From contig CAMDQN010000016.1 of NCBI GenBank assembly GCA_945905925.1, positions 1 through 64,000 on the forward strand: 64,000 nucleotides of DNA. The letters run 5' to 3'. The translations under genes were made by a program, and so were the position numbers. How positions within the stretch are numbered: the stretch's first letter is position 1; every line of letters begins with the position of its first letter. The notes beneath the pieces were generated by a model. The model was not told the DNA's origin. It ran no database searches and saw only the letters and a list, made by a program, of their open reading frames with translations. Positions 36,645 through 41,685 of the stretch are shown here, piece by piece. This DNA is from Singulisphaera sp. GP187 (GTDB taxonomy: Bacteria; Planctomycetota; Planctomycetia; Gemmatales; Gemmataceae).

Positions 36645-37139
36645 ATGTCCATGTTCATCGGCGAAGGTCTATTCGGCGACGGCAACGAAATCGCGCACAT
36701 CGACCTGCTGATCGGCGACAAGACCGGTCCGGTCGGTGTCGCGTTCGCCAACGCGCTGGCCAACCAGAGCGCGGGCCACTCCAGTCTGTTGGCGGTCGTC
36801 GCACCGAACCTCATCTGTAAGCCGGCCACAGTGATGATTACGAAGGTCACCATCAAGGGCGCGAAGCAGGCCGTCCAGATGTTCGGCCCGGCTCAGTCGG
36901 CTGTTGCCCGTGCCGTCGTGGACAGCGTGGCCGAAGGCGTCATCCCGAAGGACAAGGCCGAAGACTACGTGATTGTCTGCGGTGTGTTCATCCACTGGCA
37001 AGCAGCCGACGACACCAAGATCTACGACTACAACTACGAGGCTACCAAGATGGCCATCAGGTGCGCGATGGCTGGCACGCCGAAGATCGATGAGATCATC
37101 GCCAAGAAGAGTACCAAGCACCCGTACAGCCCCAAGTAG
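36645..37139 (+). CDS. fae: Formaldehyde-activating enzyme
   Basis: The product is 164 residues. It matches Fae over its full length: 'FGDGNEIAHIDLLIGDKTGP', 'VGVAFANALANQSAGHSSLL', 'NLICKPATVMITKVTIK' and 'FGPAQSAVARAVVDSVAEGV'. The His in 'EIAHID' is the conserved catalytic residue. Fae condenses formaldehyde with tetrahydromethanopterin to methylene-H4MPT in the cytoplasm. With mtdB immediately downstream it forms the first two steps of the H4MPT-linked C1 oxidation pathway, a known trait of planctomycetes. The later mch and ftr/fhc genes are not in the window. Confidence 0.95.
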   Translation: MSMFIGEGLFGDGNEIAHIDLLIGDKTGPVGVAFANALANQSAGHSSLLAVVAPNLICKPATVMITKVTIKGAKQAVQMFGPAQSAVARAVVDSVAEGVIPKDKAEDYVIVCGVFIHWQAADDTKIYDYNYEATKMAIRCAMAGTPKIDEIIAKKSTKHPYSPK

Positions 37140-37152
37140 TCTTGGTCATTGG

Positions 37153-37211
37153 CGGTTTAGCGGTCGCCCCGCTGGGGCGACTGCGGCCTCTTCGGGTCCG
37201 GCGCTAAAACG
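37153..37211. repeat. Hairpin element between fae and mtdB
   Basis: An inner stem GTCGCCCC-GCT-GGGGCGAC (37163-37181) lies within outer arms GGTTTAGCG and CGCTAAAAC. The outer arms recall the element at 33319-33385. It may act as an intercistronic stabiliser or attenuator. Confidence 0.7.
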
Positions 37212-37241
37212 GGAATCGCCTCACCCCAATTCGCACCACAC

Positions 37242-38117
37242 ATGGCCGAGAAAGCAACGATCCTCGTTCAACTCGACACCGACCCGCTGCCGAGCGTGTT
37301 CGACCGCGTCGTCGCGGTGGACGCCGGCGTGCAGCACATCTTTAGCTACGGCGGGGTCACGCCGCAGAACGTGATGCCACTGGTTCACGGGTGCATCTTC
37401 ACGCGCGGCGGCAAAGACCTCGCACGCACCGCGATCTTTATTGGCGGCTCGGACGTGACACTTGGCGAAGCGGTCGTCGCGGAAGTGCGCAAACACCTCA
37501 TCCCGCAGTACGGTTTGAGCGTGTCGCTGATGCTCGATTCCAACGGGGCGAACACGACTGCGGCAGCGGCCGTTCGCGCCGCGGGCCGGCACCTCGATCT
37601 GAGCAAAACAAAGTCGCTCATCCTCGGCGGCACCGGTCCGGTCGGGCAGCGCGTCGCGCGCCTGCTCGCGCGGGCGGGTGGCAACGTCAGGCTCGGCTCG
37701 CGGCAGAAGGAGCGCGCCGAAGCGGTGTGCGCTGCGATCCGCACGCACGTTCCCGGTGCGGACATTCAGGCCGTGAGCGTTGCTTCCAGTTCCGACGCTC
37801 CAGCCGCGATCGACGGGCGCAACTTGGTGGTCGCCGCGGGCGCCGCGGGCGCGGTGCTGCTGCCGAAGAAAATCCGCCTCGCGTGCAAAGCGTTGAAGGC
37901 CGCGATTGACCTGAATGGCGTGCCACCGGCGGGCATCGAGGGCGTCGAACTCAACGACAAGGGCGCCGACCGCGACGGTCACATCTGCTACGGCGCGCTC
38001 GGCGTCGGCGGTACCAAGATGAAGGTTCACCGCGCCGCGATCAACAAACTGTTCGAGTCGAACGGCACAGTACTGGACATCGAAGAGGTGTACGCTCTCG
38101 CGCTGCTGTTGCCGTAA
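37242..38117 (+). CDS. mtdB: NAD(P)-dependent methylene-tetrahydromethanopterin dehydrogenase
   Basis: The product is 291 residues. The N-terminal part 'ILVQLDTDPLPSVFDRVVAV' and 'DAGVQHIFSYGGVTPQNV' is characteristic of MtdA/MtdB, followed by 'FIGGSDVTLGEAV' and 'SNGANTTAAAAVRAAGRHL'. The Rossmann motif 'LILGGTGPVGQRVARLLAR' binds the nicotinamide cofactor. The enzyme oxidises methylene-H4MPT to methenyl-H4MPT. Location next to fae favours MtdB over MtdA. Cofactor preference cannot be fixed from the sequence. Confidence 0.9.
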   Translation: MAEKATILVQLDTDPLPSVFDRVVAVDAGVQHIFSYGGVTPQNVMPLVHGCIFTRGGKDLARTAIFIGGSDVTLGEAVVAEVRKHLIPQYGLSVSLMLDSNGANTTAAAAVRAAGRHLDLSKTKSLILGGTGPVGQRVARLLARAGGNVRLGSRQKERAEAVCAAIRTHVPGADIQAVSVASSSDAPAAIDGRNLVVAAGAAGAVLLPKKIRLACKALKAAIDLNGVPPAGIEGVELNDKGADRDGHICYGALGVGGTKMKVHRAAINKLFESNGTVLDIEEVYALALLLP

Positions 38118-38128
38118 CCGCGTGCGGC

Positions 38129-38521
38129 TCACTCGTTCGCGTGCGGTCCGAAGGTTCGCGTCACTTCGCCCGCGCGCTGTTCCACCACATCGACCAACAG
38201 CGGGTGCCGGCCGAGCGGTTCCGCGAGCACGAACCGCACGCCGGGGAATCGCGCACTCAACTTGTCGCGCGTGGCGGTCAGGTCTTCGACGACGTGAACG
38301 CCGGGCGAAAGGAAATACGGGAGCAAAATTACGTCCGTCGCACCGGCTTCGACGCACTGCGCGCCACCGGCTTCGATGTTCGGTTCGGCCAGCTCCAGGT
38401 ACGACACGCGCACGACGGGGTAGCGACCGCGCTCGCGCAGCGCGGCGGCGATGAACTCCAGGTCGGCGTTCGCTTCCGCACGCCGGCTCCCGTGCGCGAT
38501 GAGTAGAAGTGCGGTCGGCAA
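38129..38521 (-). CDS. Sirohydrochlorin chelatase-like protein (CbiX family, single domain)
   Basis: The product is 130 residues. The hallmark 'LLLIAHGSRRAEANADLEFI' is at the N-terminus (catalytic His in AHGSR), with 'VRVSYLELAEPNIEAG' and 'VILLPYFLSPGVHVVEDL' (second His). This is the CbiX-small/SirB class that inserts cobalt, nickel or iron into sirohydrochlorin. The TTG at 38521 has a GGAGG site six bases upstream, and that site lies within the repeat element at 38522-38610. It is convergent with mtdB. Confidence 0.82.
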   Translation of the reverse strand: MPTALLLIAHGSRRAEANADLEFIAAALRERGRYPVVRVSYLELAEPNIEAGGAQCVEAGATDVILLPYFLSPGVHVVEDLTATRDKLSARFPGVRFVLAEPLGRHPLLVDVVEQRAGEVTRTFGPHANE

Positions 38522-38610
38522 AGAACCCCTCCCCAACCCCCCCCTAAGATAGGGAGGGGCTTTGTCTGTCTCCCCCTTCCCTTCAGGGAAGGGGGTTGGG
38601 GGTTAGGTCT
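38522..38610. repeat. Imperfect inverted repeat (CCCCTCCC...CCCTTCAGGG module)
   Basis: AGAACCCCTCCCCAACCCC faces GGGGGTTGGGGGTTAGGTCT, with inner GGGAGGGG, CCCCCTTCCC, TTCA and GGGAAGGGGG blocks. The outer part resembles the hpnE insert and the inner part the hairpin at 152-177. It occupies the divergent region between the CbiX-like gene and the pseudokinase gene, where promoters should lie. Confidence 0.82.
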
Positions 38611-38626
38611 CTTCTATACTACTCCC

Positions 38627-40036
38627 ATGATCGGCGCGCGGGTCGGCAACTGGTACGTCGAATCGGAAATCGGGCGTGGTGCGCTCGGCGTGGTCTATCG
38701 CGCGCGCGGCTTCGACGACCCAGACCGCCTCGCCGCGGTCAAAGTGTTCACCGAGGTGCGCGACCCAGCCGCGGTTCAGCGACTCGCGGCGGAGTTGCTT
38801 CCGCTCCAGCGGCTCGATCACGCGAACATCGCGAAGTCACTCGACTGCGGCACGCACGGCGGGTTGGCGTTCGTCGTCTCGGAGTTCATCGACGGCACCG
38901 ACTGCGCGAAGCGCCTCGAAGCGGGGCGCCTCCCGTGGCGCGAGGCGCTCAGCGTCGCGGTCCAGGCCGCTCGTGCCCTCAAACACGCACACAACCGCAA
39001 CGTCCTTCATCGCGACCTCAAGCCCGCGCACCTCGTTCTCACGCCCGACGGCACGCTCAAGGTGCTCGCGTTCGGGGTCGCGAAGGTGTTCCCGCCGCCG
39101 CCGAACCATAGCCCCGCGATCGGTTCGTCCGCGTACTTTCCGCCGGAGGCCGCGAGCGGAAAATCGCTCACGCGCCGGAGCGATTTGTACTCGCTCGGCG
39201 GCGTACTCTATACTCTCGTCACAGGGCGCCCACCGTTCGCGGCCGGGTCCGTGGTCGAGCTGATACACAAGCAGTGCTACACGCTCCCCGAACGCCCGGC
39301 GATGCTCGTCAACGACCTTCCGCCGGAGGTAGACGAGTTCATTTGCACGCTGTTGGACAAGAACCCGGCGCGCCGACCGGGGACCGCGGCCGTTCTCCTC
39401 GAAGAACTGGAACGCATTCGTGGGAAGTTGGAGCGTAAGGGCGAAAAACTAACCTGGCCCGCGAAGCTCACGCCCGACACCGCGGAGTTGCCAGCGCTGC
39501 CCGCCGCACTCGGCGGTGAGGGCGAAGGGACCGACTCGCCCCCACCGGAGACCCGCCCACTGCTCAATCGCCCGCTCGTGGTGATCCCGCTGTTCCTGGT
39601 GGTACTCGCGGCGCTGATTCTGCCGTTCGCGTGGCCCGGTCCGTCCGCCGACGAGTTGTACGCGGCGGCGGAACCGCTGGTCGCGTCGGACAACCAGGAC
39701 GACTGGGACGCGGCGGAGAAGTACCTCGAACCGCTTGCGCGGAAGTACCCAAACCAGTATAAGGACGAGGTCTCGCGCGCGAGACGGAGCGTGAAGGATC
39801 GGCGGGAGTTGCGGCGCGTGATCACCGATAGCGCGAAGCCCGACTTGCGGACCGACGCCGAGCGCGCCTACTTCCGCGGGCTGCGGTTCGTGCAGGACGG
39901 CGACCCGGTGCAAGCGCGGGCAGCATGGGAAGGCGTCGTGACCACGTTCGGCGCGGAGCCGGGCGAAGAGCGGTGGGTGAAACTGGCCCGCACCGGACTG
40001 AAACTCCTGACGCAACCCGATGGGCGCCCGCGCTAA
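38627..40036 (+). CDS. Ser/Thr protein kinase homologue, predicted pseudokinase, with C-terminal TM
   Basis: The product is 469 residues. The kinase fold spans about residues 8-265: Gly-loop 'EIGRGALGVVYRA', the ATP lysine in 'LAAVKVFTE', 'HRDLKPAHLVL' and 'RRSDLYSLGGVLYTLVTGRP'. Two metal-binding residues are missing: the catalytic-loop Asn is His135 and the DFG motif is 'AFG' (Ala148). Asp130 and Lys132 of the catalytic loop remain. A TM segment ('VVIPLFLVVLAALILPFAW') lies near residue 325, with a TPR-like periplasmic tail. It is followed by an intact kinase gene, suggesting a regulatory partner. Confidence 0.85.
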   Translation: MIGARVGNWYVESEIGRGALGVVYRARGFDDPDRLAAVKVFTEVRDPAAVQRLAAELLPLQRLDHANIAKSLDCGTHGGLAFVVSEFIDGTDCAKRLEAGRLPWREALSVAVQAARALKHAHNRNVLHRDLKPAHLVLTPDGTLKVLAFGVAKVFPPPPNHSPAIGSSAYFPPEAASGKSLTRRSDLYSLGGVLYTLVTGRPPFAAGSVVELIHKQCYTLPERPAMLVNDLPPEVDEFICTLLDKNPARRPGTAAVLLEELERIRGKLERKGEKLTWPAKLTPDTAELPALPAALGGEGEGTDSPPPETRPLLNRPLVVIPLFLVVLAALILPFAWPGPSADELYAAAEPLVASDNQDDWDAAEKYLEPLARKYPNQYKDEVSRARRSVKDRRELRRVITDSAKPDLRTDAERAYFRGLRFVQDGDPVQARAAWEGVVTTFGAEPGEERWVKLARTGLKLLTQPDGRPR

Positions 40037-40137: not shown

Positions 40138-41685
40138 ATGGCTACTCCCGCCACGACCGCTCGCGAGTACTGCACGCTCCTGGCGAAGAGCAAATTGCTC
40201 CTGGCGGAGGAGGTGGAGTCACAGTACCGCCAGTGGAAGGAAGAGCGTCCCGGCACGGACGACCGCGTGGACTCGTTCCGCCGGTTCCTGGTCGCGCGCA
40301 AGTGCCTCACCGAGTACCAGGCGATGCTCGTCCAGCGTGGACGCGCCGACGGCTTCTTCCTGGCCGGGTACAAGATCCTCGACCGCATCGGCAAGGGGCA
40401 GATGGGCGGCGTGTACAAAGCCGTTCACACGTTCGGTCAATTGGTCGCACTCAAAATTCTCCCCGCGTCGCGGGCCAAGAACCAGCACATCTTGGGACGG
40501 TTCCAGCGCGAGGCTCGGCTGCTCACGCAACTCGATCACCCCAACGTGGTGCGTGCGTATCAGGTCGGCGACAGCGGCGGCGTTCACTTCATCGTGATGG
40601 AGTTCCTGGAGGGCGAGACGCTCGCCGACGTGCTGGAACGCCGCAAACAGTTACCGTGGGCCGAGGCCGTTCGGCTGGTGCGACAGGTGCTCGACGGGCT
40701 TCAGCACCTGCACGACCGCCGCATGGTTCACCGCGATCTGAAACCCGCGAACATCATGCTCATGCCCGTCCTGGCTACGGGTAAGCCGGACGCCACCTGG
40801 GACGCGACCGTGAAGATCGTCGATGTGGGTCTCGGGCGCGAACTCTTCGATGACGACGCGCCGGAAGGACAGATTGAGACACCGCTCACGCAGGAGGGTT
40901 CGGTCCTGGGCACGCCCGATTACCTCGCGCCGGAACAGGCGAAGGACGCACGATCGGCCGACATCCGGGCGGACATCTACAGCGTCGGGTGCGTGCTGTA
41001 CCACTGCGTCGCGGGGCGAACCCCGTTCCACGAAACGAACATCATGGCGCAGATGCTCAGGCACGCCACCGAGCCGGCCGCACCGCTGAGTTCGTTCGCG
41101 CTCGACGTGCCGACCGGGTTCCAACAGGTGTTGAACCGGTTTCTGGCGAAGTCGCCCGACGAGCGGTTCCAGTCACCCCTTGAAGCGGCCGACGCGCTCA
41201 AGCCGTTCGAGAGCGGCGGCGCCCCGGCATCGCCCTCGAAACTGGTGCCTGCGTACAAGGACTGGCTGGAAAGCGAATCGCAGATGGAGACGCCAAAGGA
41301 ACTGCTCCCGAAGACCGCGAAGCCGCCAGTGCCGGCTCCTGCGCCCGCGCCCAAGCCGCCTGCGCCCAAGCCCGGGATCGCAATCTCGCCCGCGCTCAAA
41401 AGCACCACTGGGCCGCTCCCGACGAAACCCGCCGCGCCGCGCCCGGCTCCGGTCCCACGCCCGGCTCCGGTCGTCGAAGAAGTCGATGTCGAACTCGTGG
41501 CGGAGCCGATGCCGCCGGCACCCGTGGTGTTGCAGGCACCGACCCCGCCGCCTCGCCCGCTGTGGCAGCCGGACCGTCGCGACTGGATCATGCTCGTCGC
41601 GGGGTCCGGGTGCGTGCTGTCCGCGGTGGGAGTCGGTGCCGTGCTCGCGCGCCTGCTTGGTCCGAAACCAAAGCCTGCGGAGTGA
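40138..41685 (+). CDS. Ser/Thr protein kinase with C-terminal membrane anchor
   Basis: The product is 515 residues. Residues 1-75 are a helical N-terminal domain ('AREYCTLLAKSKLLLAEEVE') found in planctomycete kinases. The kinase domain (about 80-360) is complete: 'RIGKGQMGGVYKAVHTFGQL', the Lys in 'VALKILP', 'MVHRDLKPANIML', 'VKIVDVGLGRE' (DVG in place of DFG, Asp kept) and 'LGTPDYLAPEQA'. A Pro/Ala-rich linker leads to a TM near the C-terminus ('WIMLVAGSGCVLSAVGVGAV'). It is predicted active, unlike its upstream neighbour. Substrates are unknown. Confidence 0.9.
   Translation: MATPATTAREYCTLLAKSKLLLAEEVESQYRQWKEERPGTDDRVDSFRRFLVARKCLTEYQAMLVQRGRADGFFLAGYKILDRIGKGQMGGVYKAVHTFGQLVALKILPASRAKNQHILGRFQREARLLTQLDHPNVVRAYQVGDSGGVHFIVMEFLEGETLADVLERRKQLPWAEAVRLVRQVLDGLQHLHDRRMVHRDLKPANIMLMPVLATGKPDATWDATVKIVDVGLGRELFDDDAPEGQIETPLTQEGSVLGTPDYLAPEQAKDARSADIRADIYSVGCVLYHCVAGRTPFHETNIMAQMLRHATEPAAPLSSFALDVPTGFQQVLNRFLAKSPDERFQSPLEAADALKPFESGGAPASPSKLVPAYKDWLESESQMETPKELLPKTAKPPVPAPAPAPKPPAPKPGIAISPALKSTTGPLPTKPAAPRPAPVPRPAPVVEEVDVELVAEPMPPAPVVLQAPTPPPRPLWQPDRRDWIMLVAGSGCVLSAVGVGAVLARLLGPKPKPAE

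Follow-up and report, generated by a model that had tools for sequence, protein, structure and literature searches.

A predicted membrane pseudokinase beside an intact kinase in the Gemmataceae, with repeated loss of catalytic residues in the upstream gene

The window, a stretch of 64,000 nucleotides of planctomycete DNA, encodes a predicted membrane pseudokinase (P0001) followed by an intact membrane kinase (P0002), and P0001 is best read, with a probability of roughly 60%, as a conserved regulatory pseudokinase, an inactive partner to the kinase downstream of it. The central result, which the initial annotation of this locus had missed, is that the upstream gene has been inactivated repeatedly and independently across the family. 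The chances are about even that these events form a natural series leading from a kinase pair to a receptor pseudokinase-kinase pair. In that case the sensor-bearing kinase, upstream in a bacterial two-gene unit, would have lost its activity on some six independent occasions through different lesions (HER3-like HRN, CASK/STRAD-like metal-ligand loss, HRE and HRG), and the downstream kinase would have stayed intact throughout.

Domain organization and catalytic residues of P0001

P0001 is a 469 aa protein encoded by an ATG-initiated open reading frame at 38627..40036 on the forward strand, and is predicted to comprise a kinase-like domain (residues ~11-257), a juxtamembrane linker, a TM helix and a C-terminal helical domain. 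The Pfam Pkinase model (PF00069) is covered over the whole domain by residues 11-257 (1.9e-40), and the score of 139.4 against a gathering cut-off of 31.7 bits indicates a protein kinase-like fold. Translation and alignment of homologues show that the Gly-rich loop, Lys39, Glu56, His128, Asp130 and Lys132 are retained; the catalytic loop (39008..39031, forward) reads His128-RDLKPA-His135, keeping HRD and the Lys and placing His135 at the canonical Asn, and AFG (Ala148-Phe149-Gly150; 39068..39076, forward) stands in place of DFG. An alignment to PknB of M. tuberculosis sets the catalytic-loop Asn of PknB opposite His135 and its DFG Asp opposite Ala148. The initial annotation had described both metal ligands as gone and the ATP-binding Lys, Asp130 and Lys132 as remaining, and the alignments bear this out in full.

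The only hydrophobic segment, residues 317-335 (39575..39631, forward; hydropathy 2.97), is the predicted TM helix, and its position is constant among the members of the P0001 clade that were checked. The AlphaFold2 alignments were shallow, holding 4 sequences for P0001 and 3 for P0002, and the kinase domains of both proteins were modelled mostly with pLDDT <50; only helices at the C-terminus of P0001 and at the N-terminus of P0002 are confident. Behind the TM segment of P0001 lie predicted helical hairpins with a block pLDDT mostly of ~80-90 over residues 341-460, dipping to 53-66 near residues 391-410, and by appearance only this suggests a TPR-like domain at about residues 340-465. A structural search with the P0001 model returned kinase matches only, over the poorly modelled N-terminal part. 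At the other end of the gene (39980-40036), P0001 and some close relatives (G003, G006 and G010) lack the final ~54 residues of most orthologues, which are 522-527 aa in length.

The kinome of the same genome, assembled from stretches, comprises ~67 alignable kinase domains. In five of these domains one of four residues (Lys, the Asp of HRD, Asn or the Asp of DFG) is missing, and P0001 alone has neither D nor E at the DFG position, which argues that the lesion is not a matter of chance.

Conservation and selection within the genus

A search of 18 further genomes from the genus recovered an orthologue of P0001 in 17, the exception (G018) being 65% complete. The DFG Asp position is A or G (AFG/GFG) in 17/17 of these orthologues, His occupies the catalytic-loop Asn position in 16 of them, and Asp130 and Lys132 are retained throughout the Gemmata genus. 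The remaining orthologue (locus L007 in G001) carries Asn at the His135 position with AFG kept, an apparent reversal. P0001 is thus a pseudokinase in the sense that at least one of the VAIK Lys, HRD Asp and DFG Asp is lost and the loss, here of the DFG Asp, is conserved in orthologues. The conservation of Ala148 and His135 had been proposed as a check on the initial annotation, with orthologues holding an intact DFG and Asn as a sign of local mutation; no such orthologue occurs within the genus, and intact ones are confined to the more distant genera of G077 and G026.

The kinase domain of P0001-type proteins shows dN/dS of 0.06-0.19 in pairs with unsaturated dS (G007/G009, 0.08; G082/G083, 0.06; G114/G115, 0.19; G064/G065, 0.11; G000/G003, 0.09). 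As these values are close to the 0.05 of a canonical kinase pair (G037/G038), purifying selection acts on the pseudokinase domain and the gene is not a decaying one. A local mutation, pseudogene or assembly artefact can be dismissed with near certainty, since the same residues are found in 17 other genomes and dN/dS is well below 1.

Repeated inactivation across the Gemmataceae

In a maximum-likelihood tree of 47 P0001 homologues, including a canonical paralogue outgroup, 36 Gemmataceae proteins form one orthologous clade (support 100/100) apart from the canonical paralogues. The fewest changes required within this clade are five at the HRD Asp, four at the DFG position and three at the catalytic-loop Asn; the canonical outgroup rows of the same tree show no change at these sites. 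The HRD Asp was lost on five separate branches, becoming E in g50 and again in g8, N in G064/G065 and again in G033, and G in G078/G079. The DFG Asp shows a single loss, at the root of the Gemmata lineage, after which the position varied among S, A and G. G033 and G026 are long branches whose joint position is unsure, and leaving G033 aside would lower the number of HRD losses by one.

The resulting motifs differ from lineage to lineage. The g50 proteins read HRE with Asn and DFG intact, G064/G065 and G033 read HRN with DFG kept, G078/G079 read HRG, and in G063 the sole change is Asn to His. The g57 proteins and Gemmata (g1) read HRD, His and (A/G)(F/Y)G, and g8 has lost all three of the HRD Asp, Asn and DFG Asp together (HRE, His, SCG). 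His is found at the Asn position in 24/25 rows of g1, g57 and g8, the exception again being G001. In the Gemmata lineage, the activation-loop Thr residues of the canonical paralogues (LTxTGG) are replaced by a Pro-rich loop. Only two members of the 36-protein clade, G077 and G026, are intact.

The partner kinase

The partner open reading frame is listed from 39925; however, homology matches often begin at query residue 70-72, and together with an ATG they place the start at 40138, 101 bp past the P0001 stop. The resulting 515 aa Ser/Thr kinase (40138..41685, forward) is predicted to hold an N-terminal four-helix domain, an intact kinase domain, a Pro-rich linker and a C-terminal tail anchor, the hydrophobic segment spanning residues 484-502. 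The catalytic Lys, Glu, HRD, Lys, Asn and Asp are all present (HRDLKPAN, with DFG reading DVG), in agreement with the initial annotation of the next gene as a complete kinase with a membrane anchor, and the activation-loop Thr is kept as well.

The tree of the partner kinase contains a 34-member clade from the same genera as the P0001 clade, and the Lys, Glu, HRD Asp, Asn and DFG Asp are kept in 34/34 members. No catalytic-residue change occurs in the partner clade over a tree length of 8.98, compared to 12 changes at three catalytic sites over 12.12 in the P0001 clade, where an equal rate would have given ~9 in the partner. A change in the role of P0001, away from catalysis and towards regulation of a partner, best accounts for a gene that is kept under selection with different lesions in different genera while its neighbour always stays intact. 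More distant relatives of the partner kinase occur without P0001 in other genera. A recent tandem duplication was considered as the origin of the pair and rejected, as the partner ranks only ~32nd among the relatives of P0001 in its own genome.

Gene pairing and neighborhood

Coordinate counts place the two genes adjacent, on the same strand and in the same order in 25 of the 30 genomes in which adjacency could be judged, the genes of the remaining genomes sitting at contig ends. Of the other five, G111, G078 and G033 carry the two genes at unlinked sites, and G009 and G063 have them on one strand with 5-8 kb between them; in the basal G026 the adjacent pair is already present with both kinases intact. 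The two trees show matching clades and a near-matching phylogenetic distribution. Kinase genes are numerous in the source genome, which holds three or more further kinase tandems (C150, C10 and C115), so adjacency in a single genome is weak evidence and the weight lies on its conservation across genomes. A possible second pseudokinase-kinase tandem in this genome is seen at L061 (G000:C115:10500-14600), where an intact kinase gene comes after one whose product has an FHA-like segment and a kinase domain with degraded motifs (Gln in place of Lys, HRN, Cys in place of Asn, DFF).

Neighbors beyond the pair are mostly not conserved, the downstream HD hydrolase gene of the window among them. The exception is a divergent CbiX/SirB/CfbA-like chelatase gene (38129..38536, reverse), whose NF033198 match, at 1.2e-19, falls short of the curated cut-off. 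This gene completes the conserved block as its third member and stands beside the P0001 orthologue in most genomes checked, distant genera included. Between the divergent chelatase and P0001 genes lies a G/C-rich imperfect palindrome (38528-38607), the core of which, CCCTTCAGGGAAGGGGGTTGGGGGTTAGG, has three further genomic sites with 2-3 mismatches. Upstream of these, on the forward strand (36645-38117), a formaldehyde-activating enzyme (Fae) gene is followed by a dehydrogenase gene whose product resembles, by eye, MtdB of the H4MPT C1 pathway and has no curated match.

Proposed mechanism and alternatives

P0001 probably acts as partner to the downstream kinase and carries the sensor of the pair. 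Its kinase-like domain would be cytoplasmic and connected by the one TM helix to the TPR-like domain outside the membrane, where the latter may sense a signal or oligomerise; the downstream kinase has no such sensor and a tail anchor only. This division of parts, a TM helix and presumed extracytoplasmic helical domain in one protein and only a tail anchor in the other, fits a regulatory pair. The pseudokinase domain would dock on the downstream kinase and switch it allosterically, similar to STRADalpha with LKB1 or HER3 with EGFR. By analogy, P0001 of the Gemmata lineage probably binds nucleotide without metal, and His135 may help to replace the cation as His200 does in STRADalpha.

The main rival to a regulatory pseudokinase is a CASK-like atypical kinase, by which P0001 of the Gemmata lineage would transfer phosphate without Mg2+ and have weak, metal-independent activity. 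P0001 lacks no more than the two metal ligands and retains Lys39, Glu56, the Gly-rich loop, Asp130 and Lys132, a pattern shared with CASK, which is active without cations (PMC4718504), and every g1 and g57 member retains the HRD Asp. This conservation of Asp130 within the genus may, however, reflect mere overall similarity; the activation-loop Thr residues are gone, and the five losses of the HRD Asp in related lineages, together with the triple loss in g8, indicate that catalysis is dispensable in the family, making residual catalysis a rather unlikely account. The allosteric pseudokinase-kinase pair of the initial annotation is supported in part, as a conserved membrane pseudokinase beside an intact membrane kinase with conserved adjacency and matching clades, and is qualified by possible residual catalysis in the Gemmata lineage.

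It is also improbable that P0001 is a stand-alone membrane scaffold or sensor, its pseudokinase domain docking other proteins with no specific control of the neighboring kinase. The TPR-like tail and TM helix would suit such a role, as would the three genomes with unlinked copies, and EssB/YukC offers a bacterial precedent (PMC12599244); the adjacency and gene order conserved across most genomes, and the distribution nearly matching that of the partner clade, speak against it. Less probable still is a substrate relay in which P0001, once phosphorylated by the partner kinase, would recruit phospho-binding proteins. MviN, which is phosphorylated by PknB and binds FhaA, behaves in this manner, and P0001 has a conserved juxtamembrane sequence (RGKLERKGE..WPAKLTPDTAE) whose Thr is kept in g1, g57 and g8; the TPDTAE motif is, however, absent in g41, g49 and g50, most members of which also carry lesions.

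Relation to known kinases and pseudokinases

STRADalpha has His200 at the catalytic-loop Asn position and GLR for DFG, binds ATP independently of cations and activates LKB1 (PMC4718504). P0001 resembles it in the His, the missing DFG Asp and the proposed regulation of an active kinase; however, STRADalpha is a soluble eukaryotic protein that works with MO25 in a complex known from structure, whereas the P0001 complex is a predicted one. The parallel is partial, as STRADalpha supplies an Arg from GLR and no basic residue occurs in AFG, GFG, GYG or SCG, such that the His plus basic residue of a STRADalpha-type site is not found. HER3, the allosteric partner of EGFR with HRD Asp changed to Asn (PMC4718504), is a membrane pseudokinase that regulates a partner kinase, as proposed for P0001, and the HRN with DFG seen in G064, G065 and G033 is the lesion of HER3; it belongs to the receptor tyrosine kinases and also lacks the alphaC Glu, and the lesion of P0001 itself differs. 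CASK lacks the DFG Asp and keeps the Gly-rich loop and Lys (PMC4718504), as P0001 does, but is a MAGUK scaffold with demonstrated kinase activity.

Among bacterial proteins, EssB/YukC and MviN (ActPs3) are membrane-associated pseudokinases like P0001, but all three of their motifs are degraded, including the Lys, they are not from planctomycetes, and the review describing them gives no adjacent intact kinase gene (PMC12599244). The DLHK pseudokinases keep HRD and have a degraded DFG (Hrdlrpas and GFG in P. aeruginosa); they have lost the VAIK Lys and have no transmembrane region, whereas P0001 has Lys39 and a TM segment and hence does not belong to them. Nor is it a DYD kinase, in which the VAIK Lys is Arg and the alphaC Glu is lost, since Lys39 and Glu56 are present. 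The nearest solved structures by sequence are PknB, PknA and StkP (E ~1e-34), which are catalytically intact, and the score of 196.3 against 450 bits for NF033483 sets P0001 apart from PknB-type PASTA kinases. The 2025 review lists seven bacterial families that are wholly or largely pseudokinases, within a classification of 42 kinase families, and a term search of it found no mention of planctomycetes or Gemmata; the P0001 clade is set apart from DLHK and DYD by the features above. A study of planctomycete kinases counted 98-140 Ser/Thr kinases per Gemmataceae proteome and screened them for the K-D-D residues, and does not use the word pseudokinase. A literature search whose reach excluded most subscription papers and all preprints found no bacterial pseudokinase-kinase pair.

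Significance

Bacterial pseudokinases are largely uncharacterised. The P0001 clade offers intact (G026 and G077), single-lesion and full-pseudokinase versions of one orthologous gene, each beside an always-intact partner, so the order in which catalytic function was lost and the way the dead partner regulates are open to direct test. By lesion type, the clade gives bacterial counterparts to HER3, CASK and STRADalpha.
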